Below, piece after piece: positions 14,040-49,155 of a stretch of 64,000 nt of DNA. This DNA comes from Williamsoniiplasma luminosum. GTDB lineage: Bacteria; Bacillota_I; Bacilli_A; Mycoplasmatales; Mycoplasmataceae. Location: assembly GCF_002803985.1 (NCBI RefSeq), contig NZ_CP024963.1, positions 930,001 to 994,000 of the forward strand, in the 5' to 3' direction. The stretch's first letter is position 1. Each line of letters opens with the position of its first letter. The notes under the pieces were generated by a model. The model was not told where the DNA came from. It did no database searches and saw only the letters and a program-made list of their open reading frames with translations. The translations under genes were made by a program, and so were the position numbers.

Positions 14040-15017
14040 TTATTTTAAAAATTGTGCGTTTAAGAAACGAATTTTATTCGTTTCTTCAGTTTTGTCTTTT
14101 CTTGGCATATTTAAAGTTGAGTTAATATCACGAGCAACTAATTTAGTTCCATCTAATCCGATATATAATCCACCTTTACCAGCAATGATTTGATCAACGG
14201 CAAACATCGCACTAGTGACTGCTAAATGACGATCCATCGCACTTGGTGATCCACCACGTTGGATGTGTCCAAGCACAGTTGCGCGGGTCACATATCCTGA
14301 ACTTGCTTCAACTTTTTCAGCTAATGCATGGACATCAGGATACATTTTTTCAGATACGACAACCACGACACTTCTTTTACCAGTTTTGGCAATTGCTGTT
14401 ACTTGATCAACAATTTCTTGTTCTGTTAATTTTGATTCACTTGTAGAAATCACATCAGCTCCTGTGGCGATTGAAGCATACAATGCTAAATCACCACATT
14501 GGTTTCCCATCACCTCAATTACAGCAGCACGATTATGTGATTGCATCGTGTCACGAATTTTATCAATGGCTTGAACAATGGTATTTAAAGCTGTATCAAA
14601 ACCAATTGTGTAATCTGAAGAAACAATATCGTTATCAATTGTTCCTGGCAACCCCACACAATTAATTCCCATTTCAGTTAAGCGTTGAGCCCCCATATAA
14701 CTTCCATCTCCACCGATCACAACCAAAGCTTCAATCGCGTGTTTTTTTAAATTTGCCACAGCTTTTTCTCTGACTTTGATATCGGCAAATTCTGGTAAAC
14801 GGGCAGAACCAATCGCTGTTCCTCCAAGTGCAATAATATTTTGTGCATAATTAATATCCGCTTGTTCAATTCAATCATTGATCAAACCTTTATATCCATC
14901 TTTTATTACAAAAACCTCAATTTTATTTGAGGAAGCATATCTGATCACAGCAGATACAGCAGCATTCATTCCAGGTGCATCGCCCCCAGAAGTTAATACT
15001 CCAATTTTTTTAATCAT
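14040..15017 (-). CDS. pfkA: 6-phosphofructokinase
   Basis: 325 residues, ATP-dependent type. Begins [20 protein letters not shown] (glycine-rich ATP site). It has [14 protein letters not shown], the catalytic PGTIDNDI, the Ser/Thr contact stretch [23 protein letters not shown] and [14 protein letters not shown]. It converts fructose-6-P to fructose-1,6-bisP. Bacterial PfkA enzymes often accept tagatose-6-P, so it could also supply the lacC step missing here. A promoter is seen upstream, and AAAGGGG precedes the ATG. Confidence 0.97.
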
Positions 15018-15046
15018 AGGAACCCCTTTTCTTTTTCACTTATAAT

Positions 15047-15052
15047 ATTATA
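15047..15052 (-). promoter_or_regulatory. -10 box of pfkA-pyk
   Basis: TATAAT on the minus strand within GAATATATAATATTATAAG, 30 bases upstream of pfkA. Two overlapping TATAAT-like hexamers are present, and no strong -35 is visible. Confidence 0.6.
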
Positions 15053-15134
15053 TATTCTATTCACGACATATTACCTATAAAGTAAATTACTCCAAGAAAA
15101 GTAAGAAAATTAAGAAAAAATTATTTTTAAATTA

Positions 15135-15159
15135 CAAAAACAGAAACCAAAGTTTCTGT
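15135..15159 (-). terminator. Terminator of the ABC exporter operon
   Basis: ACAGAAAC-caaa-GTTTCTGT followed by a U run on the minus strand, about 30 bases after the permease stop. Confidence 0.8.
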
Positions 15160-15188
15160 AATTATTTGTATGATATGGGTAATTTATT

Positions 15189-16673
15189 TTAAATTTTTAA
15201 CTTTTTTCTAAAATGTAAATATGTTAACCATGAAGAGATTAAAAATATTAATGAATAAACTAAAGTCATGATTTCTATTAGCACTATTTTAGATGTTTTA
15301 ACATTTTTAATTTTCAAAATGTAATTCAAATTATCTATTTTCTCTGTTTCATAATCAATTTCATAATTATAATTTAATTGTTTTGTAAAAATTGGTCTAT
15401 AGGTCATTGTTAAATCATCATACAAAGCATTTGTTTTATTTTCAAAATAAAACAAATTATTCAAATGAAGCAAAGGATTTAAAAATTTATTTAACTTAAT
15501 TTTTTCATTCAATTCTTTGATTAAGGATAATTCCCTTATTTTTATAAAATCTAATTTGGCTCCTTTGTGAGTGAAAAGAAATGACTCAATTGCGAAACCA
15601 TAAAATTGATTAATCAATTGTTTTTGTACATCTGAAGAATTTCATTCATATATGGAATTAAGTAGTCCATAATTACTTTTAAAATCAAATTCTTCCATAA
15701 TTAGACCAAAATCTTTTAATATGACAATTTGACTTTTTTTCAAATCTTTCACTACTCCATCTCAATCAACCATTAAACCAAACTTTGTATTTTTTTGAGT
15801 AATGTCTAATAATTCTGAACTAGTGTTTTTGTACTCTGGAGAACTTTCTATTTTTTCAAAAAGTAAATGTGGATCATGCTGAGCATCATTTTCGTTTTCT
15901 AAAAATCAATTATTTAAATTAGAAAAATTTAATTCAATTTCTTTCCCAAAATTTAAATAATAATTAAAATTATTTGCATATACAAAAGCTTTTTTTTCAT
16001 CAATTTCAAATGGTCGTAGTTCAACATTTATATTACCTCGTTTTAATAAATTACTTTTTTGATGCTGACTTGTATCAATTTTAGTAGTGAAAAAATTTGC
16101 AGAAATCGAAGATAAAGCAATTACCAAAATTAAAATGGTTGTTGAAAATATTTGGGAATATTTTGAATTTATAAGAACTGTAAATAAGATATTTATGAAA
16201 AAGGATAGCATTGCAATAAAAACAATTCATGGCATTGGGGAAATAAAAAATCTATAAGCAAGGCCATTTTCATTAGATGAATTAATTCCATAAAATATAG
16301 CCATTATGAGAAATTGAATTCCTAAAAACATAAAAGTAAATAATAAAGATAATGAATAGCGATAAGAAAAAATGAATAAATTACTAAAACCACTACGTAA
16401 CTCCAATTTATTAATGAGTTCTTCAATGTCAACTTTATAAAATTTGTTTACCAAATATGTTGACATTATCACAATTAAAATTGAGTAGATAATTGTAATA
16501 ACCGCATAACATATAGAAATATCATTATCATTAATTCTATTGATTTGCAGCATTAAAAAAATATTAATACCAATAATCATTGTAAAGAATATTGTAAATA
16601 AAATGATGAAAAATTTACTTGATAGAATTTTAAAAGATCTTAGTTTTAAATAATTAAATTGTGTTTTTAACAT
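15189..16673 (-). CDS. ABC transporter permease
   Basis: 494 residues with about six to seven membrane helices. Five lie in the first third (around residues 18-38, 52-72, 100-125, 146-170, 172-190), then comes a large external loop (about 200-455), and one lies at the end (IVLIEIMTLVYSLIFLISSW). The ABC-2 or bacteriocin-exporter type of layout suggests export, not import. No conserved family motif beyond this. The gene overlaps the ATPase gene by seven bases. Its frame contains several TGA Trp codons, so a standard-code scan splits it into three pieces. Confidence 0.8.
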
Positions 16674-17380
16674 TTATTTGTCCCCAATTCTTGATTAATT
16701 GTTTTTAAAAAAAGTTGTTCAAGATTTTCATCTTTTACAGGTTTATTTAAAACAATGGTTTGGTTATTTAATATAATAATTTCATCTAACAAATGTTCTA
16801 CCTCTTTTATTAGATGTGTGACAATCACAATAATTTTATTCTGGTTTTTCATGTTTTTTATTTCATTTAAAACAATATTTTTATTGGAAATATCTAAATT
16901 TGCTGTTGGTTCATCAAAGAAAATAATATTAGGATCTAATATTTTGCACAAAATTATAGAAACTATTTTTTGTTGTCCACTTGATAAAGAATTAATTTTG
17001 GTTTTTTTGAAATTAATATCTTTTAATAGATAACTTTCTCTATTTATCTTTTCTTTGAATTGATCAAGATTGTTTTTATGCAATAAATATTGGATCTGTA
17101 AGTAGTCAAAAACGGTCATTTCTTTTGGTAAATCAACGTTTTCAGGAAAATAATGCATATCTTTCAAATCATCAAAACTAATTTGATGATCATTAACTAA
17201 AATTTTCCCTTCATTAATTTTGAATTCGTTGAAAATGCATTTTATTAGTGTTGTTTTTCCAACTCCATTATTACCTAACAAACCATAAACTTTAGATTCT
17301 TTTAAAGTCAAATTTATATTTTTTAAAATGACTTTATTTTTGATATTTTTAGATAAATTATTAATTCTTATTGTTTTCAT
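16667..17380 (-). CDS. ABC transporter ATP-binding protein
   Basis: 237 residues. Walker A GLLGNNGVGKTTLIK (around residue 34), signature LSSGQQKIVSI, Walker B IIFFDEPTANLD, and switch His in VIVTHLIKEVE. It is the nucleotide-binding half of the exporter made with the permease gene downstream. The start at 17380 lies inside the end of the upstream secreted-protein gene (20-base overlap), so translation is probably coupled. Confidence 0.93.
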   Translation of the reverse strand: MKTIRINNLSKNIKNKVILKNINLTLKESKVYGLLGNNGVGKTTLIKCIFNEFKINEGKILVNDHQISFDDLKDMHYFPENVDLPKEMTVFDYLQIQYLLHKNNLDQFKEKINRESYLLKDINFKKTKINSLSSGQQKIVSIILCKILDPNIIFFDEPTANLDISNKNIVLNEIKNMKNQNKIIVIVTHLIKEVEHLLDEIIILNNQTIVLNKPVKDENLEQLFLKTINQELGTNKC

Positions 17381-18539
17381 TTTGCTTTTCCATGTATACA
17401 TATGAAAGTGACTGCACTCCAACAAATAAACCTGATAAGTTAGAACTAGAATTATATATGTTTGTAGAAGCTAGAGTTGTCTCCACTCCTAAAATATTTT
17501 TGTGCACAAGTTGAGATAACAATACACCACCTGAATTATAGTTTTTAATAAAAAGTTTTGGCTTAGTGTTAAGACCAGTTTGTATCAATGTTTGTATGTC
17601 CAAAAATAATTCGGGAGTATTTAATAGATTCACCGTAACATAAGCAACATTTCCGTAATCAGATAATACTCCAGCACCAGAAAATTGAATTGAAGTTAAT
17701 GAAGCAAATTTTCAATGACTTTCTTCTTTTTGTTTATATATTTTTTTAGCTTCATCAATTATTGGATCAATATTAAAATCAATGATTGATGAAGATGTAT
17801 TATACATTTGTGATACTGGTTTAATTTCAGCACCAAATTTTAAAGTTTGATTTCCATTTGTGTTAAATCTATGCTCATCATCAAAACCGAATTTAGTTAA
17901 TGATGCATGTTGAACTCAACTTCCTCAATTTCATGTGTACGTGACACCCAAAGAAATTGATATATTCAGTCCTGAAGAATCTCATTGTTGATTATATGCT
18001 AGTCTAGATTTACCTTTTTGTGTTGATGCATTTTCATATTGAATATCTTGACTATAACTTGATGTGGTTAAATCCATAATTGTTGATGTATTTATTTTAT
18101 GAACATATTTACCTCCAACATGTTTTCAACCAGTGGTTGAATCTCAAGCATTAAATGCATAAAAATAGTTCATTGTAAATTTATTACCAATAATTTCAAG
18201 TAATTGTTCTTTATTTACTACATTAAAATCTTTAAAATTAAATTTTGCTAGATTAATTTTAACATCATATCATTTATCTTTTTCAACATAACCTAAGTTA
18301 AAATTTATCTTTCTATTACCTTCAGGCATTCGATCATTCAGTGTATCTATATACAATCTGTATTCAATATCTGTTCCGTCAACTTTAGTATCTTCTTTAT
18401 AATTAGAATCAACATCTTTTTGACTATATTTTTGAATATTAAATTGTGTTTTATTTTCAATTTTTTCATTCAAAATACCTTGACCAATGACAGGATTTAT
18501 ACCCGAGAACATGACGGGTGCTATAAATAATAATTTCAT
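17361..18539 (-). CDS. Secreted protein encoded with the ABC exporter
   Basis: 392 residues. A short N-terminal hydrophobic segment (MKLLFIAPVMFSGINPVIGQ) resembles a signal peptide without a lipobox Cys. The rest is beta-rich and polar, with YRLYIDTLNDRMPEGNRKIN, FYAFNAWDSTTGWKHVGG and VTYTWNWGSW. No domain recognised. AAGAAAGGTGA precedes the ATG. It is the first gene of a three-gene operon with the ABC ATPase and permease, whose reading frames overlap. It may be the exporter's substrate or an external partner; this is inference. Confidence 0.75.
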
Positions 18540-18903
18540 TATTCACCTTTCTTATTTTTTTATTGTTCTCACAAATATTATATAACTGTAGTCTAAGATG
18601 AAATGAGTTAAAAAGCTAATTTTAATTAAAAAACAACCTTTTTTAACTAAAAAACTGAATTTTGTCTCAAATACAAAATCTAAGGATTATTAATTCAAAA
18701 TTTTTCGCAAAAACGGTAAAACTAGGATCATAAACAAAGCATAGATTTAAATAAATCAACTATAAAAAAGTTCTTTGCTTTTTTACTAAAAAAAATCTAA
18801 AAAGAACAATAAGTTGGCAATTTTAGGAATTTTTAATCTTATTTTTTTCCATTTTGAGTTTTTTGGATGTTTTTAGGCATTAAATATGGACTTTTTAAGG
18901 TTT
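18540..18903. other. Intergenic region without a gene
   Basis: Very AT-rich, with no supported open reading frame. Bases 18799-18869 are similar (roughly 80 percent by eye) to 21839-21911 upstream of the second surface protein gene, so the control regions were duplicated with the genes. The region serves two divergent genes. Confidence 0.6.
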
Positions 18904-18935
18904 TTTACAAGTTTTTTTTTTTTTTTTAATACAAT
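18904..18935 (+). promoter_or_regulatory. Candidate phase-variable promoter with a T16 spacer
   Basis: TTTACA at 18904-18909 and TACAAT at 18930-18935 flank a spacer of 20 bases that consists mainly of 16 consecutive T (18912-18927). Loss of two to four T would bring the spacing to 16-18. Homopolymer spacers that switch promoters by slippage are known for Mycoplasma hyorhinis vlp genes. The assignment here is by analogy. Confidence 0.6.
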
Positions 18936-18980
18936 AAAGTTAAGAATTGAAAAATTCACACGATGGGAGGGATCCTGATA

Positions 18981-21365
18981 ATGAAAAAACTATTAAATAT
19001 ATTAGGAACACTTGGGCTCGTTTCAACTAGTGCAACTGCTATTGTTGCTTTTGCCAAATTACCAAGAACCAACATTCCTGAAGTTCTAAGTGCAATAATA
19101 ACTAAAGACCAATTAAATCAATTAATTACTGATGCTAAAACCCTAGCAACTCAAGAACAAAGTAAACCAATCAATGCATACAAGCTCTTGCATCAAGCCA
19201 TTGGACAAGCTAAAGGGGCGTCGGATATTTACATCAATGAAACAGAAAATTTCAATGTTTTAAATGAGGCTTATCAAAAATTGACAGCCGCAATAAATGC
19301 TTTTAAACAAACTGATGATGAAAAAGCCAACATAGAAAGTTTAAAAAATCGAATCACAAGTGCAAATAATGCTTTACAAACAAATACTAATAAATTAGAG
19401 ACAGAAAAACAAAAATTAAAAAAAGTTATTGGTGAAGCCGAGAATTTAGTTTCAAAAGTAACACTGCGCAAAGATCAAAATTTAGTTGATCAAGCTTTAT
19501 TAAACTTGCAAACTGGAATTGTGAACTTTTTGAATTCAACTAATGACTTGGCAAATTATGCAGATTTAACCAAAGCGATGGATGAGGCCAAAAAGGCTTT
19601 AAAAGATTACCCTAAAAAACACCCAGGAGTAATCCAATCCTTAACCAAAGCAATTGCTAATGCGCAAAAAGTTATTGAGCAAAAATATACAACAGCTGAC
19701 CAGAATATTGTTGATCAAGAAGTTGAAATCTTAAAAAAGGAAATTCAAATCTTTTTTGGTGCAAGTAAAGCAGAAGCGAATGTTGACGCATTAAACCAAG
19801 CAATTGTTGAGGCCAAAAAAATTGCTCAAGATTTTAAAAATAACCAAGCATGACTTAAACTTCAACAAGCAATTAAGCATGCTCAAGGAGTTGTCGATGG
19901 AAAACCATCAGTTGATCGACAAAATATTGTCGATCAAGAAGTTACAAATTTACAACAAGCAGCAAAAGATTTCAACAACATCTCAAATCAAAATGCTGAT
20001 TTAACATGATTAAATTCGAATATCAAAATGGCAGAAACAATAAATATAAAAAACAAGAAACAATCCGATTGGAATATATTTCAAACTGAAATACTTAAGG
20101 CCAAAGATTATGTTAAAAACCCACCTTTAATTGATAAACAAGATCAAGTTGATGAAATGACTGAAAATTTATGACAAGCAACTTATAAATTTTTAAATGC
20201 AACTGATCGTAAAGACATTCGTAGTACTATTTTTTGAAAAACATCAATTGGTAGCTTAAAAGACAATAAGCATGAAACAATTAAAAAACGTTTAGAAGAA
20301 ACATACACCCTTAAAGAAGGTAAAGACTACACCATCGGGGAAGTTAAGGATTACAATGGAAAATTTGGTGTGGAACTAACAGGAAAGAATGACTATCTTC
20401 AAAAAACAGTTGTTACTTTTGTTTTAGATATTCAAAACATCGAAAATGACATGGACATTCTAGCCACTTCAAAACAAGACCAATTTTGAACAGCTCATGA
20501 ATTACAACTAGCAATCGAAAAGGAAAATCTTGATAAGAAAAATACCTTAAAAGTAACCGAAGTTGCCCATGATCCAAATCTTAAAGTTAAACGTTTTAAA
20601 ATCAGAGCTGATGATCAATATGAATATAGTAAATATCAAGGTGAAATCATTGTCTCTCAAGTCTTGAATCGAGAAAATCAAGATAAAACAATTTATATAG
20701 ACCAAGATGGTACGATAAAATCAAATGACAATTCAGCACCAGAGGGAGTTAAAGAGGTTATTAATATTGGTTGAAGTTCAAATAAAAAAGTTCATGAAAT
20801 GCCTAGAAGTATTCAAAAAGTTCCACCATATATTAGTCCAAAAATAGAATCGCTATATCATTTGTTTGGTTGGGCAGAATCGTTTAATCAACCTTTAAAT
20901 AATTGAGATGTTTCAAAGGTGACTAATATGGAAAGAACGTTTAATGGGGCAGAATCATTTAACCAAGATATATCTAAATGAGACACTTCCAAAGTGACCA
21001 ATATGGTTTGAATGTTTAGTAATGCAAAATCGTTTAATCAGCCTTTAAATAATTGAGATGTTTCAAAGGTGACTAATATGAGTTATATGTTTTATTATGC
21101 ACATGCCTTTAACCAAGATATTTCAAGTTGAGATACTTCAAATGTAACAAATATGGCTAATATGTTTAATTGGACAAAACCATTTAATCAAGATATTTCT
21201 AAATGAGACACTTCGAAAGTGAACGATATGAGTTATATGTTTTACTCTGCAGAAGCATTTAATCAAGATATTTCAACTTGAAATGTTGATAGTGTGACAC
21301 AGTATAAAGAATTCGCTGGTGGTCGGGCAATACTTCCAAAAGAAAAACAACCCAACTTTAAATAA
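18981..21365 (+). CDS. Large surface protein: helical repeats plus DUF285 (BspA-type) repeats
   Basis: 794 residues. Signal peptide MKKLLNILGTLGLVSTSATA, with FAK where related proteins have a lipobox Cys, so it is probably secreted rather than lipidated. Residues about 30-400 are FIVAR-like helical repeats of roughly 75-80 residues carrying QNIVDQEV motifs. A middle region (about 410-590) is of unknown type. A linker EGVKEVINIGW ... VPPYISPKI precedes about six 25-residue DUF285 repeats (FNQPLNNWDVSKVTNM type), whose Trp codons are mostly TGA. GGAGG lies 10 bases before the ATG. The family is tied to the surface of Mollicutes and their hosts. The reading frame stays open beyond the TAA stop. 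Confidence 0.88.
20865..21335 (+). repeat. Six DUF285 repeats in the first surface protein
   Basis: Units of 75-78 bases encoding 25 residues with consensus F-N-Q-(P/D)-(L/I)-x-x-W-D-(V/T)-S-x-V-T-N-M-x-x-M-F. Copies at 20880 and 21040 are nearly identical in DNA over more than 40 bases, so they can recombine. Confidence 0.9.
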
Positions 21366-21767
21366 TCTTGAACTTGATATAAAGACGTACGCACGAATGA
21401 AATTAAAAAAATTGCTGATAAAGCTCCTGAAGGAACAAAAGAAATTGTCAACATTGGTTGAGACAAAAAGGGTGTAGCATATGAAACGCCTTCAACAATC
21501 GAGAGAGCGCCTAATAAGATTAGTCCAAAAATAAATTCACTAGTTAGTTGTTTTGCAAGTGCAGAATCGTTTAATCAACCTTTAAATAATTGAAAAACTT
21601 CAAATGTGACTGATATGAGTTATATGTTTTATGCGGCAAAAACATTTAACAACGACTTAAGTGGTTGAGATGTTACAAAAGTTGAAAAATACGACGATTT
21701 TGCTGGAGATCTTGGTTCTAATTCTCAATGAAAAGATGAATGAAAACCTCATTTTAATAAGAATTAA
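21366..21767 (+). pseudogene. Orphan DUF285 C-terminal cassette, in frame after the stop
   Basis: Directly after the TAA of the preceding gene the same frame continues for 133 codons without TAA or TAG. It encodes a second copy of the module: EGTKEIVNIGWDKKG, ISPKINSL, then two DUF285 units (SFNQPLNNWKTSNVTDM, TFNNDLSGWDVTKVEKYDDF) and its own end HFNKN-stop. It has no start codon context or ribosome binding site. It is either the severed end of a once longer protein or a silent donor cassette for recombination with the active gene. Confidence 0.75.
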
Positions 21768-21801
21768 AGATAAAACAAACAACCAAAATTTTAAACATAT
21801 T

Positions 21802-21833
21802 AAGTGTCATTACTAAAATAATGACACTTTTTG
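21802..21833 (+). terminator. Terminator after the first surface protein locus
   Basis: AAGTGTCATTA-ctaaaa-TAATGACACTT followed by TTTT. It lies after the orphan cassette and not after the first stop, consistent with the cassette being transcribed with the gene. Confidence 0.88.
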
Positions 21834-21974
21834 TGTGCAAAAAAGGAAGAATAAATTGGTAATTTTAGGGATTTTTAATTTTATTTTGCTCCATTTTGGT
21901 GCTTAATTTGGACTTTTTTTGGACTTTTTTTAACTTTTAAGGGGTGTGTTTTAACTTAGCATTGCTTTTAATAA

Positions 21975-21980
21975 TATAAT
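21975..21980 (+). promoter_or_regulatory. -10 box of the second surface protein gene
   Basis: TATAAT in TTTTAATAATATAATG, followed by a leader of about 90 bases that contains a small CACC-aaaa-GGTG hairpin at 22023-22034. No long homopolymer here, unlike the neighbouring two surface genes; only two T7 runs (TTTGGACTTTTTTT repeated) lie upstream. Confidence 0.55.
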
Positions 21981-22076
21981 GTGAATAAGGGTCGAATAAG
22001 CGAAAAACTTAAACGTATCCTACACCAAAAGGTGAAACTATAATCTGAATTAAATTCATCGGAAGGGATTTAAATT

Positions 22077-25000
22077 ATGAAAAGGCTATTAACATTACTT
22101 GGAAGTATTGGATTACTTACAGCAACATCAGCAACCGTTGTTGCTTGTGGAAATCAAAAAACCTCAATTTCCAAAATTGCAGATGATTTGCAAACGATTT
22201 TAAACGAAAAAATTGATCAAGCTTGAGAATTGGGGGATCTCCAAAAAGAAATTGATACAAAATATGGGGTAAATGTCATCACTGTCCAATCTAGTCATGG
22301 GGATCAACATGACCCAAATTCAAGTGAACAACAAAATAAATATAAATTTATTGGTCAGACAGGTAAGTTTGTCAACGAAATCATTTTAACCCATATTTGA
22401 TTTGCACCAATCATCGATACAACTTTAAATATTTCAGCGATTCAAAATGGGTTACAAACCATTTTGAATCAAAAACCAAGTTCAAGTTGAAACTTAGTTG
22501 ATTTACAAAAAGCTGTGGATGCAATTTATGGGGTTGGAGAAATTACAATTAAATCAATTCCTGTCGAACGCGCCAATGAAATAACTCCGCCTTTAAGTAA
22601 ATACAACTTTATTGGTAATGGAGTGATCGGGAATAATCACAAATGAAAAGGTGCCATTGCACTAACCCACACTTGAACACAAGTCATTGATCGCACAGAA
22701 GATATTTCAACAATTAAAACAGGTCTAGAAACCATTTTAAATGAAAAGACAAATGCAGCATGAGACTTAAATGCTTTACAAATAGCTGTGGATGCAGTTT
22801 TTGGGGATGGAGAAATTACTGTTCAAACAGTTGGACTTAAAGATCGTGCGTTTAATCTTGAAAATCATCTAGACCGATACAAATTTATTGGTCATGGAGC
22901 AGTCAATAATCAACACAAATATAAAAATAGCATCACTCTTGGTCATGAGTGACAAGAAATAATTGATCACACTGTTAATATCTCAGAGATTAAAGAACAA
23001 CTACAAATCCTTTTAAATCAAAAAAATGCTGAAGCATGAAACTTAATTGATTTACAAAATGTTGTTGATCAAGAGTTTGGGGCTGGAGAAATTAGGGTGC
23101 TACCAAGTGGTCTTCAAACTCGTGCTTTTGGAAACCAAAAGCACGTTAAGGATTATAGATTTATTGGTCTTGGTAACGTGCAAAACCAGCACAAATGAAA
23201 TAGTCAAATTAAATTAACCCATGAGTGAAATGAAAAAGTTGATCAAACTGTGGATATTTCAGCTCTTAAAACTGTTTTAGAAGCAGTCTTGAATGGAAGA
23301 CCAAATGAGGCTTGAACCATAGAAGAATTACAAGCTAAAATGGATACAATTTATGGAGTTGGAGAAATTAGGGTTCTACCAAGTGGTTTGAAAACCCGTG
23401 CTTTTGCTAACGAAAATCATGTTGATGAATACAAATTTGTTGGACTTGGTAACGCCCAAAACATTAAAAAATGAAGTGGTGAAATTAAACTAACTCATAA
23501 ATGAGGTGAAAAAGTTGATCAGACTAACAATATCACAACAATTAAAGATCAATTACAAACACTTTTAAATCAAAAAGTGGATGAATCATGAAGTTTGAAT
23601 GCTTTACAAAAAGCTGTTGATGCAGAATTTGGGGTTGAAGAAATTAGAGTTCTACCAATTGGTCTTCAAGCTCGTGCTTTTGGTGTCCAAAATCACGTTA
23701 AAGAATATAGATTTGTTGGACTTGGTAACATCCAAAACAATCACAAATGAAATAGTGAAATTAAATTAACTCACAAATGAAATGAAAAAGTGGATCAGAC
23801 TGTAAATATTTCAAAGATTCAAAAAGAATTACAAGCAATTTTGAATGAGCAAAAAAATCATGGTTGAAAATTAGCAGATTTACAAGCAAAAGTTGATAAA
23901 AAATATGGGGTTGGAGAAATTAAAGTTCTACAACCAAAACGTTTAAGACCTCGTGCATTTGTTGTAGAGAATCATGTTGATGAATATAAATTTGTTGGTC
24001 TTGGTAACATCCAAAACAACCGCAAATGAAATGATGAAATTAACTTGGCACATGAGTGAAGTGAGAAAGTTGATAAGACTGTAAATATTTCAGCCATTAA
24101 AAATGGTTTAGAAGTAATATTAAACGAAAAAGTAAATCAAGCATGAAATTTAAAAGATTTACAAGCCAAAGTTGATGCAATTTATGGCAAAGGAGAAATT
24201 GAAGTTCGACCAAGCGGTTTAAAACCTCGTGCTTTTGTTGTTGATAATCAAGTTGATGAATACAAATTTGTTGGTCTTGGTAACGCTCAAAACAATCGCA
24301 AATGAAATAAAGAAATTAAATTAGCTCATAAATGAAAAGCAACAGTTGATAAGACTGTCAATATTTCAGAGATTCAAAATGAATTACAAGCGATTTTGGA
24401 TGTTCCAGAAAAGGAAACTTCACCTTGAAGCTTAGAAACTTTACAAGCTAAAGTTGATGAAACATTTGGGGTTGGAGAAATCAAGGTTCTTCCAAGTGGG
24501 TTGAACGCTCGTGCTTTTGGAATGCAAAACCATCAAGATAAATACAAATTTGTTGGTCTTGGTAATGCTCAAAACAACCACAAATGAAATGGTGAAATTA
24601 AATTAGTTCATGAGTGAAGTGAAAAAGTTGATCAGACTGTCAATATTTCAAAGATTGAAAAAGACTTACAAGCGATTTTAAATGAACAAAAAAATAAAAA
24701 ATGAGACTTAAAAGCTTTACAAGCAAAAGTTGACAAAAAATATGGACCTAAACAAATTAAGGTTCAACAACAAAAACAATTAAACACTCGTGCATTTAGC
24801 GATGAAAATCACATTGATAAATACAAATTTATTGGTCTTGGTAACATGCAAAATGACCACAAATGAAATAGTGAAATTGTATTAACTCACGAATGAAGTG
24901 CAACAGTTGATAAAACTGTCAACATTTCAAATATTCAAAAAGCTTTACAAATCATTTTAGATGAAAAGAAAAATGAAGCATGAAAATTAGAAGATTTACA

Positions 25001-26807
25001 AGCAAAAATTAATGTAATTTATGGTGATGGAGAAATTAAAGTTCAAAAAATTGGTGTAAAAAACCGTGCTTTTGGAATGCAAAATCACAAAGATAAATAT
25101 AAATTTGTTGGTCTTGGTAACATCAAAAACAATCACAAATGAAATAAAGAAGTTACATTAATTCATGATTGAAATGAACAAATTGATAAAACTGGCAATA
25201 TTTCAAAGATTCAAAAAGATTTACAAGCGATTTTAAATGAACACAAAAGTCAAAGTTGAAAATTAGAAGATTTACAAGCCAAAGTTGATAAAAAATATGG
25301 TGCTGGAGAAATTATTGTTCAACCGATTGGCTTGAAAACTCGTGCTTTCGGAATCCAAAATCACAAAGACAAATACAAATTTGTCGGGCTTGGAAATATC
25401 CAAAACAATCACAAGTGAAACGGAGAAGTTCAATTAACTCATGATTGAAATGAGAAAGTTGATCAGACTGTCAATCTTTCAAAAATTGAAAAAGAATTAC
25501 AAGCAATTTTAAATGAGCACAAAAATGAAGCATGAAAATTAGCAGATTTACAAGCTAAAGTTAATAAGAAATATGGAGCAGGAGAAATTGAAGTTCGACC
25601 AAGTGGTTTAAAACCACGTGCTTTTGGAATGCAAAATCATGAAGATAAATACAAATTTATTGGTTTAGGAAAAATCGATAATAAGCACAAATGAAGTGGT
25701 GAAGTTCCATTAGTTCATAAGTGAAGTGAGAAAGTGGATCAGACTGTCAATCTTTCAAAAATTGAAAAAGAATTACAAGCAATTTTAAATGAACGTAAAA
25801 ATCAAGAATGAAAAATCAAAGATTTACAAACTAGAGTTAATAAAAAATATGGGGCTGGAGAAATTGAAGTTCTACCAATTGGTTTAAAACCTCCTGGTAT
25901 CATCTTCCCCAACCATGAAGATAAATACAAATTTGTTGGTCTGGGGAAAATTGATAATAAATACAAATGAAACGGACAACTTAAATTAGTTCATAAATGA
26001 ACTGATAAAATTGATCAAAGTGCAATTGATAAAGAAGTTAAGATTGCTAATAATATAAAAACACATAAACAAGCAGACGCATATAGAGATAAATTTGATA
26101 AAGGACAAATTAAAATTCCTGATGTTGATATTAAACTGGAATATAGAATCCCAGAAGAACGATTAGATGGTCTGTTCTATGTTACTTTTACTCCCAAACA
26201 TGGGGGAAAATACGAAGGCTTAACCCCAATAATGTCAAACAAAAATGTAATTGAATTTGATCCTCAAATTGCTTTTGAAAATGCGATTAAAGATGAATTT
26301 AATCGTGTTTCAAAAATCAAAACCCGTAAAGAGGCTTTTAAATACAATGACAAAAACCATTCAATGTTCGGCGTTCATATTGATGTTAAATATGAAGATG
26401 CAACACCATCAAGAAAAGGTGAGTTTTATGTAGTCTTTACACCAAACGCATTTAGAAAAGCAAAAGCAGTACAAACAAAAGTAATTAAAATTGATTACGT
26501 ACCATTGAGTGATGGCGAATTTTGATCAACAATCCAACCATTTTTAAATGAATGATTCCTTATCAAAACTGATAGAGATTTAATTAATTTTGGTAAAAAG
26601 TATGCCCCATTGGCCAATGTGATGCCAATTAATTTTACTAATTTTAGTGCTCTACCAGGGCTTGGAATTTCGGTTGAATCAGGGAAAAATAAATCTGGAA
26701 GTCGAGAAATTAGACTTATAATTGAAAAAAGAAGTGGTGGTTTTTATGACGTATTGAAAGGGGTTCCAAAATTCAATTTCTGAAGCAAAACAATCAGATC
26801 TAGTTAG
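22077..26807 (+). CDS. Giant lipoprotein with 14 tandem ~90-residue repeats
   Basis: 1576 residues. Signal peptide MKRLLTLLGSIGLLTATSAT and lipobox VVAC (Cys 24). Residues about 31-1315 are 14 tandem repeats of 85-92 residues. Each has NIS-x-I-x-x-x-L-Q-x-I-L-N, an amphipathic helix with LQAKVD-x-x-YG-x-GEI, an R-A-F motif, (D/E)-YKFVGLGN, and KW-x-x-E-I-x-L-THEW ending KVDQTV. The last about 260 residues are different, with two copies of a unit ending FYV(T/V)FTP and a basic end. I do not recognise the repeat family. Lipid-anchored at the cell surface by its lipobox. Almost every conserved Trp is TGA. GGAAGGG precedes the ATG. Confidence 0.9.
22167..26020 (+). repeat. 14-copy tandem repeat, period about 275 bp
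   Basis: Copies start at the codons for (I/L)-S-x-I before each L-Q-x-I-L-N motif; the first starts at 22167, the second at 22431 and the fourteenth at about 25752. Internal copies (for example those around 24600, 25440 and 25740) are the most alike, and the first three are the most diverged. That pattern suggests recent expansion of the 3' copies. Confidence 0.92.
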
Positions 26808-26873
26808 GATGATCCAACTGCTGGTTTCATAATTAAAATAGAATAAACACATTAATTAATTAGAATATGTTAA

Positions 26874-26908
26874 GGCACCACCATTTAAAAAAGGTGGTGC
26901 TTTCTTTT
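26874..26908 (+). terminator. Terminator of the giant lipoprotein gene
   Basis: GCACCACC-atttaaaaaa-GGTGGTGC followed by TTTCTTTT, about 70 bases after the stop. Confidence 0.9.
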
Positions 26909-27150
26909 ATGATGGAAAAACATAATTAAGATAAATTTAAGTAACCAATATCTTTCTCATTTGTATTTCAAATGAGGTTTTTAAATATGCCATTTAACGA
27001 AAAAGAAGTAATATTGAACGGTTGTTTTCTATCATGATCAATATTTCATATAAAAGATTGAAATTATGAAAAAGCCATAATTTTGGATTTTTTTTGGACT
27101 TTTTTTGTTTTTTTAATCACAAAAGGATTGATTTATCAAGCACTTCGTTG
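26909..27150. other. Intergenic region before the third surface protein gene
   Basis: No convincing gene. It holds a hairpin CTCATTTG-tattt-CAAATGAG followed by GTTTTT (26956-26981), which may be a second terminator. It also has a TTTTGGACTTTTTTT element like the one upstream of the second surface gene. A 74-codon frame from 26987 runs through the A17 tract but looks fortuitous. Confidence 0.5.
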
Positions 27151-27167
27151 AAAAAAAAAAAAAAAAA
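27151..27167 (+). promoter_or_regulatory. A17 homopolymer upstream of the third surface protein gene
   Basis: Seventeen consecutive A end 48 bases before the start codon. TTGATT (27128-27133) or TTGAAA at the tract's left edge could be the -35, and TTAAAT (27177-27182) the -10. Slippage would change the spacing, a known switching mechanism in Mycoplasma surface genes. The promoter assignment itself is weak. Confidence 0.5.
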
Positions 27168-27215
27168 GAATGAAAATTAAATTAAGCTGGATAGGCTTGA
27201 AGGGATTCTAAAATC

Positions 27216-29444
27216 ATGAAAAAGTTATTAACATTATTAGGAAGTATTCTAGTTTTTGGAGGAAGTGTCACAACAGTTGTTGCTTGTACAAGCCAAATTA
27301 TTTACTTTACTCCAATTACATCAATCGAAAATGAACTACAAGAAATTTTAAATATACAACAAGATCAACCTTGAAAATTGAAGGATTTACAAACTGAAGT
27401 TGATACATGATATGGAGCTGGAACAATTAAAGTTAATCAAATCAAAACCTCAACTTATAGTTCCAATTCTATTAATCACCCAGATAAATATCGATTTGTT
27501 GGGGAAAAAATCTATATCGGTTCAATTATTTTAACTCATAATTGAACCGAGCCAGTTGATAATACACAAAATATTTCCACCATTAGAACCGAGTTAAACA
27601 ATCTTTTAAAGGAAAAACCAAATACAGCTTGAAACGAAAATGAACTACAACAAAAAATTGATGAAAAATGGCCTTTGGGAGGGGTTAATTTTATAAAAAT
27701 AAGTTCTCCACGAGCTAGTCATGAACAACTATATTATGAGCAATATTTGTTTTTTGGCAAAGGTAATGAAGATAATCCATATCAATATTTTGGAGCAATC
27801 ATGTTGATACATGATTGAAGAAAAACAGTTGATGATACACTACCTATTTCAGATATCAAAACCAGTTTAAAAGCAATTTTAGATATGGAAGAAAATGAAG
27901 CATGAAACTTAAAGGATTTGCAAACAAAAATTGATGAAGTTTATGGTCTAGATGAAATTATCGTTGAATCAACTAGTTCAATTCGTAGTTCCAATCCAGG
28001 TGAGACCCATAATAACAATTATCTTTTTACTGGCAAAGGGAATGCAAATAATGAACATTGATATTCTGGCACAATTAGTTTAACTCATACTTGAAATCCA
28101 CTGATTTCAACTACACAAGATATTTCTCTAATTCAAAATGAATTAGAGAAGATTGTCTTATCTCAAGAACAATATTGAACAAAAGAAACATTAGAACAAG
28201 CAATTGTTGATCAAAAATTAGATATCAATGGTGGTATCACAGTTTCTGAAGTCGAATTGTCCAAAGAAGGCAAAATACCAGTTAAGCAATGAAAATTCAC
28301 TGGTCAAGGTAATGTCATTAACGAATATAAATATGATGGTTCATTAGAAATATACCAAGTCGAAGACAAAGAAACATTCAGTGAAACTATCTACGTTGAT
28401 GCTAATGATCACAAAATTAAAATGATTGATGGTAGTGCTCCCGGAAGCACTACAGATCCAGAAATAGGTACTATTTTAAGCGAAGGGACCAAGGAAGTTA
28501 TTCATATTGGTTGACATAAACCAACAGGGGGCACAGACGACTATAAAGCATATCAAATGCCACAAACAATTGAAAAAGTTCCTCCATATATTTCGCCTCA
28601 AATAAAACAATTGTTCCAAACGTTTGAATATACAAACAAGTTTAATGATGCTAATGTTTCAAAATGAAATACTTCAAATATCATTACTATGGAAAATATG
28701 TTTCGTGGTGCAAAAGTGTTTAACCAACCATTAAATATGTGAAATACTTCAAAAGTCACCGATATGAACACTATGTTTTATGGAGCTGATGAATTTAGTC
28801 AAGATTTAAATGGTTGAGATACTTCACAAGTGAAACTAATGGATTTTATGTTTGCATATACTCAAAAATTTAATGGTGACATTTCACAATGAGATACTTC
28901 AAATGTTTCTACTACAACTCACATGTTTCATGATGCAAGAGCATTTAATCAAGATTTGATCCATGATGGAAAAAAATGAAACACTTCAAATGTGGAAGAT
29001 ATGAATTATATGTTTTATGGCGCGAGGGCGTTTAATGGGGATATTTCCAATTGAGACACATCAAATGTGGAAACAATGGAATATATGTTTTCTGGTGCAT
29101 TACGATTTAACCCGAAAAAACTAAATTGAAATGTTAAAAAAGTCTGACAAATGTCAGAAATGTTTTCTGATGCGAAAAAATTTAATGGTGATATTTCAAA
29201 CTGAGATACGTCAAGAGTAACAGAAATGCATAGAATGTTTAATAACTCATTAGCATTTAACCAAGATATTGGAGAATGAGACACTTCGAAAGTCGTGGAA
29301 ATGGGTAATATGTTTGAAGGTGCAAGAGCGTTTAACCAAGATATTTCAAGATGAGATGTTGGAAGAGTGGGGTGGCATGGTTCTTTTGACGAAGATACTA
29401 ATCCCGAATGAACTGCTGATAAAAAACCAAATTTTAAAGACTAA
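27216..29444 (+). CDS. Hybrid surface lipoprotein: ~90-residue repeats plus DUF285 repeats
   Basis: 742 residues. Signal peptide MKKLLTLLGSILVFGGSVTT, lipobox VVAC (Cys 24). Residues about 33-390 are four diverged copies of the repeat found 14 times in the upstream gene (L-Q-x-E-V-D-x-x-YG-x-G, YLFTGKGN, LTH-x-W). A linker follows (EGTKEVIHIGW ... VPPYISPQI), then ten DUF285 units of about 25 residues (FNGDISNWDTSNVETM type), ending KKPNFKD like the first surface protein. It therefore joins the N-terminal module of the second gene with the C-terminal module of the first. AAGGG precedes the ATG by about 10 bases. Confidence 0.9.
28620..29400 (+). repeat. Ten DUF285 repeats in the third surface protein
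   Basis: 75-base units encoding 25 residues with M-F at each end; one unit carries a four-residue insertion (near 28960, IHDGKKWNT). The last unit is degenerate (W-D-V-G-R-V-G-W). Confidence 0.88.
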
Positions 29445-29525
29445 ATCATCACCAAATAATTTATTTAATTATTGGAAAACAAATAATAAACTAGTTCAAT
29501 AAATATTTTTACATAACCAAAATTT

Positions 29526-29554
29526 CACAACCAACAAGTTGGTTGTGTTTTTTG
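29526..29554 (+). terminator. Terminator after the third surface protein gene
   Basis: CACAACCA-acaag-TTGGTTGTG followed by TTTTTT, about 80 bases after the stop. Confidence 0.88.
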
Positions 29555-29670
29555 ATTTAACAAAGCTAATTTTATTTATCAATTTTAAAATTATTTGATA
29601 GTAATTCAAAATCAAGGTTTATATCGATGGCAAATTATGAGAGTATATATTTTAAAGGTAGGATCTAAAA

Positions 29671-31122
29671 TTGATAAATAAAGGCGAAAAAAGAGCATTA
29701 CAAAGTTTTGAACGGATTAAAAATCCTTATTGAAAAATTGAAAATTGAAAAGATATTTTACAAATGGCAATTCCGATTTTTGTCCAATTAGCTTTTAACG
29801 TGATCATTACACAAATTAATATTGTCGCGATTAATTATTATCAAGGTGGAATTTATTCAGATTCCGTTTCTAAGGCCGTTTTAACCTATACAACCCTGCA
29901 ATTTGTCCCAACCCTAATTGCTAGTGGGAGTTTGGTCGTTTGTGGTAATTTGATTGGTCAAGGGCGCAATAACGAAATCAGTAAGGTGATGGTCACTGGA
30001 ATCATTATTAATTTCTTAATCACGAGTGTAATTTTTGTTTTGGTTGAAATTTTTTCTGACAATATTTTATATTTAATGAATTCTTCACAAGCAACAACAA
30101 TGTTGCCAAATGGGGAAATGCCCCAAGACTTTATTCGTAATTATTATCGTTTATTAAATCTTCAATTATTAGTTTTAGCATTTTGCCAAGTGTTTATTTC
30201 TGGTTTACAAGCAATTAAAAAAAATATTCATGTCACAATTGGGGCAGTTGCCAGTAATATTGTTGATTTAATCTTTGTGGTTTTTGTATTATTTGTTTTT
30301 GATCTCAATCCACTTTGATCAGCTTTATCCATTGTTGTGGCTGGGGTTTTTCAACTCATTTACATGGTGATTATGAACATCAAATTTATTGATTATAAAA
30401 TCAATAAAGGGCATCAAATTAACTTAAAACTTGTCAAAGAAACAATCAAAGTTGGACTCCCAATTGCTTTGGAAATGGGAGTTTGAAGTTTATGTAATTT
30501 TGCCACTGGAACAGTGATTGCTCACTTAGTTCCAGATGGAGCTGGTGAAACCGGAACCAGTACTTGAATTGTCTTACATCGTTCAATCAATTCAATCAAT
30601 CAATTTTCATTTGCTTTCATGCAAGCAATGGGAACAGTAACTGCGGTCATGGTTTCAAGAAAGATTGGTGAAGACAACATTCAAGGGGCATATGAGGCTG
30701 GAATTAATTGTTGAAAAACAGCGATGTATGCTTCATTTGGATTTGGGATTTTTACAATTTCTTTAGCCTATCCATTGTTGCTACTTTTCAATCATGACAA
30801 TGCTCAAATTTTTCCATGAGGTTATACATTAATGGGAATTGTTGCTTTTAAATTAATTTTTGACACAGTCAATATGACCTTACTTAGAGCATGTTGGGCA
30901 GTTGGGGATTTATGGTATCCATTATTAGTTTCAATTGTGACCATGGGAATTGGGATGGTTGCTTTACCATTCACCATTGTTTATGGATTTAAAACATATG
31001 AAGGGGTTGGATTAATCTTAATTTATATTGCCGTCGTTCTTGATCCAATATCACGTTCATTTATTTATGCTTATCGTTGAATCAAAGGAACATGAACCAA
31101 ATACGCTGCGATGATTCAATAG
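29671..31122 (+). CDS. MATE-family efflux transporter
   Basis: 483 residues with about twelve membrane helices, the usual MATE size. Each half begins with a characteristic stretch: AIPIFVQLAFNVIITQINIV (about residues 33-52) and GLPIALEMGVWSLCNFATGT (around 265-284). The family exports drugs or metabolites using Na+ or H+ gradients. The start is taken as TTG 29671 behind AGGTAGGATC, which fits the charged N-terminus (INKGEKRALQSFERIKNPYW); an internal ATG at 29764 would cut into the first helix. Own terminator, no operon partner. Confidence 0.9.
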
Positions 31123-31125
31123 AAC

Positions 31126-31161
31126 AAAAAGATAGACAATCGCAATTGTCTATCTTTTTGA
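31126..31161. terminator. Bidirectional terminator after the MATE gene
   Basis: AAAAAGATAGACAAT-cgc-AATTGTCTATCTTTTT (with a shared base pair at the centre). It lies between the MATE gene and the convergent small gene. Confidence 0.88.
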
Positions 31162-31266
31162 TTATTTATTTTTAGCTTCTTTTCTTTTTGCTTTTCATTC
31201 TCGAATAACTCTGACTAAGCAGTATTTTCTTTGACAACATTTTTTTTCTTGTTTTTGGTTTTCCAT
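31162..31266 (-). CDS. Small Cys-rich basic protein (34 aa)
   Basis: 34 residues, start MENQKQEKKCCQRKYCLVR, then a basic helix (VIREWKAKRKEAKNK). It has three cysteines in CC-x3-C. A good AGGGG ribosome binding site lies about 9 bases before the ATG, and its stop abuts a terminator, both of which support a real gene. No family recognised. The CC-x3-C cluster is too small for a classical zinc finger but could bind a metal as a dimer. Confidence 0.55.
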
Positions 31267-31385
31267 GTTTTTATCCCCTTATAATTATAATTCTATTATT
31301 TAAGTAAAAAAATATTTTATCAGTAGGTTTTTTCAGAATCCACTTTGGTTCTCTCTAAAAAGTTTATTTTGTGTTTAAAATATGA

Positions 31386-32360
31386 CTATTTTTTGTGTTG
31401 TTTTTGTACTTTTATTTTAGTGATTATTTTTTGATACAAAGGAGCGATTTCTAATTTATATAAACCATAACCAGAAATAATTGTTCAAACGACATATTGA
31501 ATCATCATTGTGATCACATAGTTTTCATTCAATCCAACCGGACTATACATTAAAATTTTAAAAATATTTGTCAGTTCTCAAATTCACCATTGTTCCGTGA
31601 TAAAGGCAATTTGCATAAAATATGCAAACATATTTACCCCATTTGAAACTCCATCAAAAAAGTGTTGGGTTGAAGTCACAACCTTGGTGTATTCTAAACC
31701 AAACATACCTTCATAAGCCACGGGAATCATGTAATACCAGCCAAAACAAAATCCGATCATAATCCCCAATCCAAGAACTAAACAAACTATTTTTAATCAT
31801 CATTGTCTCAGATCTTTTAAGCTTCTGAATTTTTCTTCTTTATAAACAAAAGTAAACAAGCATCATCCAATCACTGCTCCAATAACAATCATTATTTGCC
31901 CTAAAAAATCACCAATGTATCCCGCAACAATCGCAAAAGTACCATATAAAATTCCATTGATAATGCCCCAAAATCATTGTGATGTTTTACCACCCACAAC
32001 CATTGCTACAGCCAGCAATCCAGAAAATGCAGCGATTCCATTAATTGAATAGAGAATTGATGAAGCTAATGCAATGCCAGCACCATGACGCCCAATTGGT
32101 GAACCGTTAATAAAAGATTCTGCATATTGTTTGAAGGGAGAAAAATGTGAACCAACCATGTATTTTAAATGTGTTGGAAGCTGATTTTCTGGATCTGTAA
32201 AGACTTCAATCGAAAAAAATCCGAAGAAAATTAAAACAATTCCCCCAACTAGTAAAAGAATTTTAAAGCCTTTGGATAATTCCTTAATATCTTTAATCAC
32301 GTTTTGGTAACCCATAAAATTAATGTTGGTTTTTTGTTTTGATTGAATAGTATTTGTCAT
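31386..32360 (-). CDS. PnuC-like nicotinamide riboside transporter, copy 1
   Basis: 324 residues with about seven to eight membrane helices. N-terminal cytosolic stretch (FMGYQNVIKDIKELSKGFK), then helices. The C-terminal part is typical of PnuC: a Trp-rich helix start FITEQWWIWELTNIFKILMY and a final YVVWTIISGYGLYKL. Members of this family take up nicotinamide riboside or related vitamins by facilitated diffusion. About 65 percent identical by eye to the next gene upstream. AGGAGAA precedes the ATG. Substrate not provable from sequence. Confidence 0.8.
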
Positions 32361-32502
32361 TAAAATTTCTCCTATTTGTTGAATTTTTAAAATGTAAGAT
32401 CAATATTTTTCGGATTTTTTGTCTACATTTATAGTATTACATAGAATATTTGATAATTCTTATTTTCAACTTTTTTGATGTTTAAGATGTTTCAGAAAAC
32501 AA

Positions 32503-32538
32503 AAAAACCAACAAAACTGATTCGTTTTGTTGGTTTTT
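32503..32538 (-). terminator. Terminator between the two PnuC-like genes
   Basis: AAAAACCAACAAAAC-tgattc-GTTTTGTTGGTTTTT just after the stop of copy 2, so the two copies are separate transcription units. Confidence 0.9.
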
Positions 32539-32543
32539 AGAAA

Positions 32544-33506
32544 TTAAGTTGATTGAATTTTTCTTTTCGCTTTTAACATTTCATAAATTGGAATTAGTTG
32601 TAATTTGTATAAACCATATCCAGATAAGGCTGTTCAAACTATGTATTGAATAATAATTGTAATTACATATTGATCACCCATTCCAACTGGACTGTACATT
32701 AAAATTTTAAAGATATTAATAAATTCTCAAATTCAAAACTGTTCTGAAATGAATCCTAATTGCATGAAATATCCAAACATGGCAATTCCATTCGCCACTC
32801 CATCAAAGAAATGTTGAGTGTCGGGAATTGTATATTCTAATTTAAATATTCCTTCATAAGCAGCAGGAATCAGGTAATATCATCCAAAACATAATCCGAC
32901 AATCACTACCAATGCTCCCAGCACACAAGCTAATCTTAATCATCATTTATCAAGATCTCGAATTGTTCTAGCGTGTCCTTCTTTATAAACAAAATTGAAT
33001 AAGTATCAACCTAGTGGTGCTCCCAGTACTAACATTGATTGACCTAGAAAATCACCAATGTTTCCAGCGACTAAAGCAAATGAAGCAAAGAGAATTGCAT
33101 TAATTAACCCTCAAAAGAATTGTGATGTTTTTCCACTAACAATCATCGCCACAGCAAACAAGCCTGTAAAAGCTGCAAAACCATTAATTGAATAAAGAAT
33201 GGTTGATGCCAGAGCAATTGTGGTTCCTGCTTCCCCAAGCGGTGAACCATGAAGAAATGCATTAATATATTGTTTAAATGGGGCAAAATGCGAGCCCACC
33301 ATATACTTTAAATTGTCAGGAACGATGAAACCTGCCTCTTCTTTGTAAACATCGATTGAAAAAAATCCAAAAAAGATTAAGACAATTCCACCGACTAGTA
33401 GAAGCATTTTAAACCCTTTGGATAATTCTTTCATATCTCTAATAACGTTTTTATAACCCATAAAATTTAAACTGGGTTTGTGTTTTTTCTCAATAATATC
33501 GCTCAC
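32544..33506 (-). CDS. PnuC-like nicotinamide riboside transporter, copy 2
   Basis: 320 residues, same architecture as copy 1. N-terminal LNFMGYKNVIRDMKELSKGF, helices, and the PnuC-type end (QFWIWEFINIFKILMYSPVG ... YIVWTALSGYGLYKL). Start is GTG 33506, seven bases after GGAGG; the upstream ATG at 33545 has no ribosome binding site. The tandem, separately terminated pair suggests duplication followed by divergence in substrate or regulation. A long inverted repeat lies upstream. Confidence 0.8.
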
Positions 33507-33573
33507 TTTTTTTCCTCCGATTTTAACCTTTGAAAATGTTACCACAATATTTTCGAGAATAAATTAAAAAATC

Positions 33574-33631
33574 GTTTTTAAAAGATTTTTTCCATGAATA
33601 AATTCATATTCATCAAAAATCTTTTAAAAAC
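33574..33631. repeat. Long inverted repeat upstream of PnuC-like copy 2
   Basis: Perfect 17-base arms GTTTTTAAAAGATTTTT and AAAAATCTTTTAAAAAC with a 24-base loop that itself contains ATGAAT-aa-ATTCAT. It lies 68-125 bases before the start codon. It could be a terminator of the small gene upstream, an operator, or a structured leader. Confidence 0.7.
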
Positions 33632-33698
33632 AAACTTAAAAAAATGCAAAAACACTTAAAACTGTTCTTGATGATTAATCCAATCTTTAATCATTAAA

Positions 33699-33818
33699 TT
33701 ACATCATTCTTCGCAGCAAGATTAAATCAAAATTGATGTGATCATTTTCATCAATCACCATTTGTTCATTCTTACTTTGTTTTTTAGTTTTTAAAGCATT
33801 TTTCTTTTGCTTTGTCAT
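33699..33818 (-). CDS. Small basic/acidic protein (39 aa)
   Basis: 39 residues. A Lys-rich start (MTKQKKNALKTKKQSKNEQM) is followed by an acidic and hydrophobic end (VIDENDHINFDLILLRRMM). GAGAGGAAACGAAAG lies before the ATG. It stands alone between the hpt terminator and the PnuC-like gene. No family recognised; moderately convincing because of the ribosome binding site and unbiased composition of the second half. Confidence 0.45.
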   Translation of the reverse strand: MTKQKKNALKTKKQSKNEQMVIDENDHINFDLILLRRMM

Positions 33819-33932
33819 TTCTTTCGTTTCCTCTCCCAGAATTGCTTTTTAATTGTAATTTAGTCAAACCAAATTTCAATTAAAAAGGGCAAAAAAGAAT
33901 AATTTATTTACCAAGCTTTTTCTGAAATAAAA

Positions 33933-33966
33933 AAACTTCAAAAACTCATAAAAGTTTTTGAAGTTT
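33933..33966 (-). terminator. Terminator of the PAP2-ruvX-hpt operon
   Basis: AAACTTCAAAAACT-cataaa-AGTTTTTGAAGTTT followed by a U run on the minus strand, seven bases after the hpt stop. Confidence 0.88.
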
Positions 33967-33972
33967 AGAGAG

Positions 33973-34539
33973 TTATCATTTTCAAGTTTTAAGTTTTGAA
34001 GTGTCACAAATTGCAACATATGGTAAGTTTCTTAATCTTTCTTCATAATCTAGACCAAATCCGATTAAGAATTCATCTTCGACTTCAAAACCGAATCAAT
34101 CAGCTGTAATTTTGGCTTGACGGTTGGCTGGTTTATCAATCATTGTAATGATTTTTACATCAGCAGCCCCACGATGATAAAAATCTTTTTTCACAAAATC
34201 TAAAGTTAAACCTGAATCAATAATATCTTCAACAAGTAAAACGTGACGACCTTTTAAATTAGTACTAATATCTAACACAATTTCAGGATTAGCATTAGCT
34301 TTGACCCCACCTTTATATGAAGACATGACCATATAATCGATTTCACATTCAGATTTTACATGATTTAATAATTCAGACATAAAAGGGACACATCCTTTTA
34401 AAATCCCGACCACTAAAACGGTGTTATCTTGAACTTTTTGCTGCTTGTAATAAGCATCAACATCTAAAGCCATCGCTTGAGAACGAAGGGAAATTTCTTC
34501 TCTTGTATGTAAGATTTTTTTAACTAATGGGTGTTGCAT
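33973..34539 (-). CDS. hpt: Hypoxanthine phosphoribosyltransferase
   Basis: 188 residues. Type I phosphoribosyltransferase with VVGILKGCVPFMSEL, the PRPP motif VLLVEDIIDSGLTLDFV, the mobile-loop start MVMSSYKGG and the base-recognition end WFGFEVEDEFLIGFGLDYEE. It salvages hypoxanthine or guanine with PRPP, central in purine-auxotrophic Mollicutes. It follows ruvX by 11 bases. Ends KTWKW with two TGA Trp codons. Confidence 0.95.
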
Positions 34540-44888: not shown

Positions 44889-46337
<1,449 letters not shown>

Positions 46338-46360
46338 ATTTTATCCCTTATTCTTGCTCA

Positions 46361-49015: not shown

Positions 49016-49094
49016 TCTTTTGATTATCCTCCTAAAAATATTCTATTATGGAGGCATTTTTTTATTTTCTTTTTTGAAACAAGAAGTGGGATTA

Positions 49095-49126: not shown

Positions 49127-49155
49127 AAAAATATAGAATATAGAAATATCGAAAA

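Follow-up and report, generated by a model that had tools for sequence, protein, structure and literature searches.

Do three adjacent genes for large exported proteins in Williamsoniiplasma luminosum belong to a system that varies the cell surface, or are they three independent genes? The genes lie within a stretch of 64,000 nucleotides (hereafter the window), corresponding to positions 930001-994000 of the 1,031,560-base genome. Open reading frames (ORFs) were read with genetic code 4; coordinates refer to the window unless marked as genome positions, and all features of the locus itself are on the forward (+) strand. A first-pass annotation of the DNA had described three adjacent large exported proteins with module swapping, repeat expansion and switchable promoters in one place. 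The description of the proteins was borne out: gene 1 (18963-21365; 800 amino acids (aa), probable start codon ATG at 18981), gene 2 (22077-26807; 1576 aa) and gene 3 (27216-29444; 742 aa) are all intact ORFs, and each carries an LP_plasma signal above the cut-off. We consider it likely that genes 1-3 belong to one dispersed, modular repertoire of surface proteins, which would vary quickly by slippage in promoter tracts and slowly by recombination between paralogs.

The modules are combined differently in each gene. Gene 2 encodes a lipoprotein with tandem repeats of about 92 aa (22158-26024), followed by a tail (26025-26807) that matches only itself among the proteins gathered in the analysis. 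The repeat profile gives exactly the 14 units, followed by a unique end, that had been proposed. Gene 3, also a lipoprotein gene, contains four such repeats (27312-28373), a linker (IHIGW...VPPYISPQI, 28500-28604) and DUF285/PARCEL repeats (28605-29420, limits approximate). A profile built from gene 2 alone recovered all four gene 3 units (domain E = 2e-27, 1e-26, 5e-21 and 2e-8; best E among 400 shuffled control proteins, 2e-3), in agreement with the claim that gene 3 joins the repeat of gene 2 to DUF285. Gene 1 combines a FIVAR-like framework, one diverged repeat, a linker (INIGW...VPPYISPKI, 20760-20846) and DUF285/PARCEL repeats (20847-21317, limits approximate). The diverged repeat (20418-20687, limits approximate) had been overlooked in the first pass. 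It is homologous to repeat 4 of gene 3: the gene 2-only profile weakly finds aa 489-533 of gene 1, and blastp aligns the same stretch with that gene 3 unit. The FIVAR part of the earlier assignment fared less well, as PF07554 scored 23.9 bits, under its gathering cut-off of 29.2 bits. The label 'FIVAR-like' for the stretch at 19176-19376 is only suggestive.

The DUF285/PARCEL identity of genes 1 and 3 is certain. Both genes exceed the cut-offs for DUF285 (PF03382; 218 and 304 bits, respectively, cut-off 25) and for TIGR02167 (PARCEL; 129 and 115 bits, cut-off 30), and gene 2 matches neither; DUF285 and the PARCEL repeat are the same element (PMC2996958). Genes 2 and 3 have the lipobox cysteine, and gene 1 and its relatives carry a lipoprotein-type signal without it. 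The homology between genes 1 and 3 forms a block of about 300 residues that spans repeat, linker and DUF285, and thus extends beyond the linker alone; the two genes have diverged from each other. The linker, which corresponds to a motif upstream of the DUF285 repeats in Mycoplasma feriruminatoris (PMC10634449), is indeed common to both, but it is present in 17 of the 19 DUF285-family proteins of the genome. Because it occurs family-wide, it does not indicate that genes 1 and 3 have swapped modules, and the idea that it proves a recent exchange was rejected.

The repeat of about 92 aa is an undescribed family in Pfam, NCBIfam and the PDB. No Pfam model matched it at the cut-off, NCBIfam gave no match to it outside the signal region, and a PDB sequence search returned no usable match. 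Kinship of gene 2 with spiralin (NF038030) was considered and rejected, since the match reached 23.2 bits (cut-off 140) and was limited to the first 63 residues, i.e. the signal and the start of the protein. An AlphaFold2 model of one repeat, built solely from the window's own repeats, predicts with moderate confidence an alpha-alpha-beta-beta-beta order (H-H-E-E-E; mean pLDDT 79, pTM 0.68); its comparison with PDB folds gave no match with E < 0.2. The profile search that the first-pass annotation had proposed located the repeat in 11 of 60 related genomes, distributed over four genera, with up to 87 matches in one of them. A relative-locus search with gene 2 found no relative.

Recombination between members of the wider family is recorded in the paralogs elsewhere in the genome. 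Tails have been exchanged: the paralogs at genome 109928 and 99776 are unrelated in their frameworks, of which no more than 82 nt can be aligned (76% identity), and their tails are 89% identical over 353 nt. Conversely, the paralogs at genome 105409 and 97266 share frameworks that are 93% identical over 1830 nt, and identity falls to about 60% in their tails, with the break close to the linker. For the pair at 109928 and 112595, identity drops from 86% to 70%. A recent duplication of repeat units is evident at genome 338-342 kb, where three consecutive units are identical over 276 bp. The 5' ends form a further shared module. The promoter/signal cassettes of the genes at genome 342 and 348 kb are 98.6% identical over 350 bp, and the mature parts of these two proteins are much more diverged. 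The corresponding promoter/signal-peptide cassette of gene 3 (27067-27287, limits approximate) resembles those of the 342/348-kb repeat lipoprotein genes (82% identity over 220 bp), and genes 1 and 2 have an 82-bp upstream element in common (80% identity). Module swapping and repeat expansion, which had been placed at the locus itself, are therefore found in the wider family (paralog tails, 276-bp units) and not as events among genes 1-3; genes 1-3 may themselves recombine.

Several additional observations were made on the family. A recurring GGACTTTTT/TGACTTTTT element lies upstream of the start region in genes 1-3 and in the 342/348-kb genes. The region at genome 337-349 kb encodes two tandem repeat lipoproteins, one with identical tandem units and the other with a duplicated two-unit block. 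A tandem DUF285 cluster at genome 81-115 kb mixes cysteine-less FIVAR-like proteins with lipoproteins, lacks long tracts and may be a donor reservoir. In the related genome G001, a large repeat-gene array (316-349 kb) contains several near-copies of a unit of about 5 kb.

Directly 3' of the gene 1 stop codon and in the same frame lies an orphan linker plus DUF285 segment (21366-21764) of 133 codons, without start codon or signal, which the first pass had not noted. Two FIVAR-like relatives, at genome 92357-94141 and 107825-109582, have no DUF285 tail. Exchange at the linker would be expected to leave behind such tail-less frameworks and such a framework-less tail; simple deletion would be equally able to produce both.

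Genes 1 and 3 each carry a long homopolymer in the promoter region. In gene 1, a T16 tract (18912-18927), which is a candidate slippage switch, lies between TTTACA (18904) and TACAAT (18930). In gene 3, TTG is followed by an A17 tract (27148-27167, A17 = 27151-27167). The promoter of gene 2 has no long homopolymer, so that the earlier proposal of switchable promoters applies to two of the three genes. A/T runs in the window fall off up to a length of 9 nt, are absent at 10-15 nt and reappear with four runs of 16-17 nt (expected number of runs of at least 15 nt, about 0.2). Genome-wide there are 13 A/T tracts of 15-17 nt, and nearly all tracts in the stretches examined are located shortly upstream of an ORF. 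Besides genes 1 and 3, genes with tracts comprise the pair of tandem repeat lipoproteins at 342 and 348 kb, other lipoproteins and a C5 methyltransferase, as well as phosphotransferase system (PTS) and GH1 genes, an RpiR-type regulator and a methyltransferase-like ORF.

Pooling 25 tracts from the present genome, G001, G002 and G004, we found TTG at most 2 nt upstream of the tract in 17 cases (10% of controls, p = 8e-12), and a 5/6 match to the -10 element at most 3 nt after it in seven cases (6.7% of controls, p = 0.001). On this geometry, the simplest reading is that the tract itself would serve as promoter spacer, separating -35 from -10. Tract lengths also differ between orthologs: A17, A16 and A16 for the methyltransferase in three species, T16 and T15 for the PTS gene, and T15 and T16 for repeat lipoproteins in two other species. 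Individual lengths may be off by one due to sequencing error, but the positions recur across independent assemblies. Furthermore, tracts are enriched at repeat/PARCEL genes (p about 2e-4 in the present genome and about 4e-7 in G001, both based on rough gene counts), and in G001 five of the eight tracts are found at the head of repeat/PARCEL gene groups. That tract length switches the expression of genes 1 and 3 is what these observations lead us to infer.

Tracts were also noted at genes with other functions. Positions 44889-59173 of the window hold three tandem gene pairs, each of a GH1 glycosidase-like gene and a PTS transporter gene, and one more GH1 gene; A16/A17 tracts (on the sense strand) lie upstream of two genes of this region (53336-53351 and 59157-59173); both tract promoters share an ATCGAG-containing stretch before the -10 element. 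The tract in the C5 DNA methyltransferase promoter (genome 659055-659071) is kept in three species and may indicate a phasevarion. At genome 508534-510207, a T16 run precedes two overlapping ORFs, one methyltransferase-like and the other resembling a DUF262-type protein, possibly a switchable defence operon.

How far do these data distinguish a variable repertoire from an ordinary family of paralogous lipoproteins, formed by slow duplication and divergence, in which the tracts are spacers whose slippage is rare or inconsequential and no switching takes place during the lifetime of a host? Several results pull towards the latter. The gene 2 array is old and shows no sign of recent expansion, because its units are 46-82% identical in DNA and the longest exact match is 44 bp; the modules of genes 1 and 3 are old as well, and all effects seen lie between paralogs or between species. 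The gene 1 tract has no adjoining TTG and, by the hexamers chosen, would correspond to a spacer of 20 nt. Most DUF285 genes of the genome, including those of the 81-115 kb cluster, have no tract, and a consensus promoter scan of the region performed no better than shuffles and was not used as promoter evidence. Finally, A/T runs of at least 15 nt are widespread in the taxonomic family (52 of 60 genomes) and unspecific by themselves, so that the argument rests on geometry and association rather than on the presence of a tract. It is this geometry of TTG and tract, together with the gap in run lengths in the window, the length differences between orthologs and the identical 276-bp units in a paralog, that slow divergence with inert spacers accommodates poorly, and we regard such a purely conventional family as unlikely, though it is the likeliest of the alternatives.

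Two other explanations concern the site and its architecture. A multigene surface family with common 5' cassettes is also what a site-specific inversion or shufflon system of the Vsa/Vpma/Mpl type would look like; such a system has next to no probability here, given that each gene has its own promoter region, that no long, well-matched inverted repeat suitable for inversion brackets the promoters between 15 and 34 kb of the window, and that no recombinase occurs among the identified neighbours, although no dedicated recombinase search was made. Alternatively, the locus could mainly be a site where surface genes gained by horizontal transfer come and go from species to species, without any mechanism dedicated to variation. 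The interval between the genes for phosphofructokinase (PFK) and hpt (15017-33973, about 19 kb) holds genes 1-3, a MatE transporter and others; in G001, PFK directly adjoins hpt and the interval is empty, and in W. lucivorax, which is the best named match for PFK (81%), four other lipoprotein genes and not genes 1-3 lie between PFK and MatE. The related genome G003 has different genes behind PFK and lacks the repeat of about 92 aa as well as long tracts. Horizontal spread of PARCEL ORFs has been proposed (PMC2996958). Insertion and loss leave the promoter tracts and the exchange of tails within the genome unexplained, and as the whole explanation they are very improbable; they are compatible with a variable repertoire rather than opposed to it. 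The identified neighbours of genes 1-3 are transporters and housekeeping genes. One further neighbour, a probably exported 392-aa protein (17361-18539, - strand) adjoining an ABC transporter, matched nothing in Pfam or NCBIfam.

If genes 1-3 are part of a variable repertoire, the following course of events can be proposed. Each gene appears to be a separate transcription unit with its own terminator-like hairpin (21802-21829 behind gene 1 and the orphan segment, 26879-26899 behind gene 2 and 29526-29547 behind gene 3), and a conserved signal peptide would carry each protein to the membrane. The exposed part would consist of a framework, either FIVAR-like helices or alpha/beta repeats of about 92 aa, and in genes 1 and 3 also of a DUF285/PARCEL tail behind the linker. 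On a fast time scale, polymerase slippage in the T16 or A17 spacer could shift promoter spacing and thereby raise or lower the expression of gene 1 and of gene 3 separately, with gene 2 possibly serving as a stable, always-available long-array protein. More slowly, homologous recombination among paralogs would exchange tails and frameworks and duplicate units; in the paralogs of this genome such events lie in the past, and for genes 1-3 they may be assumed. The orphan cassette could be either a leftover of tail exchange or a donor tail. The locus may deserve the name of a surface-variation system given to it in the first pass, and its role would probably be to let the cells adhere to the insect host and its microbes or phages, or to shield them from these.

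Parts of this scheme have precedents. PARCEL/DUF285 lipoproteins of the M. mycoides cluster, M. agalactiae and M. bovis (PMC2996958, PMC10634449) likewise carry tandem PARCEL repeats of 25 aa preceded by a conserved motif and form large variable repertoires of signal-bearing surface proteins. Some of their genes have a homopolymer or dinucleotide tract on the 5' side, and the combination of a PARCEL lipoprotein with an upstream homopolymer was already known (PMC2996958). Unlike in those systems, the tails are joined here to frameworks without a database family at the cut-off (repeats of about 92 aa or FIVAR-like), and the organism belongs to a firefly-associated genus. The promoter switching proposed resembles the classical Vlp system of Mycoplasma hyorhinis (summarised in PMC10502178), where each Vlp gene has a promoter homopolymer tract, as genes 1 and 3 do, and where lipoprotein signals are combined with coding repeats able to change in number; the repeats here may do so too, with identical tandem units in one paralog on the one side and the old array of gene 2 on the other. 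In contrast to Vlp, the tract is A or T, the genes concerned also comprise a DNA methyltransferase gene as well as PTS and GH1 genes, the genes are dispersed, and the link to ON/OFF states is a presumptive one. With 19.6 and 19.4 bits, respectively, gene 2 and gene 3 have signal peptides that score narrowly above the cut-off of the Vmc-like model NF045726 (19.3 bits), and Vmm of M. mycoides switches via its promoter spacer (PMC10502178), as suggested here; unlike Vmm and Vmc (M. capricolum), the present proteins are long and modular, and the sequences upstream of genes 1-3 show homopolymers or no repeat of this kind, and no TA-dinucleotide repeat.

This style of surface variation is thus already known, and the new element is a building block not described before, the repeat of about 92 aa. 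The analysis yields a named undescribed repeat family and a list of promoter tracts open to re-sequencing. A broader possibility, which we put forward tentatively and consider doubtful, is that the design of TTG, 15-17 A/T and a -10 element independently toggles genes for modular surface proteins and sugar uptake as well as a DNA methyltransferase, which might constitute a phasevarion, and that exposed tails are replaced through linker-guided recombination with orphan C-terminal cassettes like that behind gene 1. Both would then be parts of one coordinated contingency programme of firefly-associated mollicutes, whose hosts have no antibodies. In mollicutes, antibody pressure in vertebrates is the usual explanation for phase and antigenic variation. 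Such a toolkit in a genus associated with insects would suggest other kinds of selection, such as phages, adhesion or niche switching.

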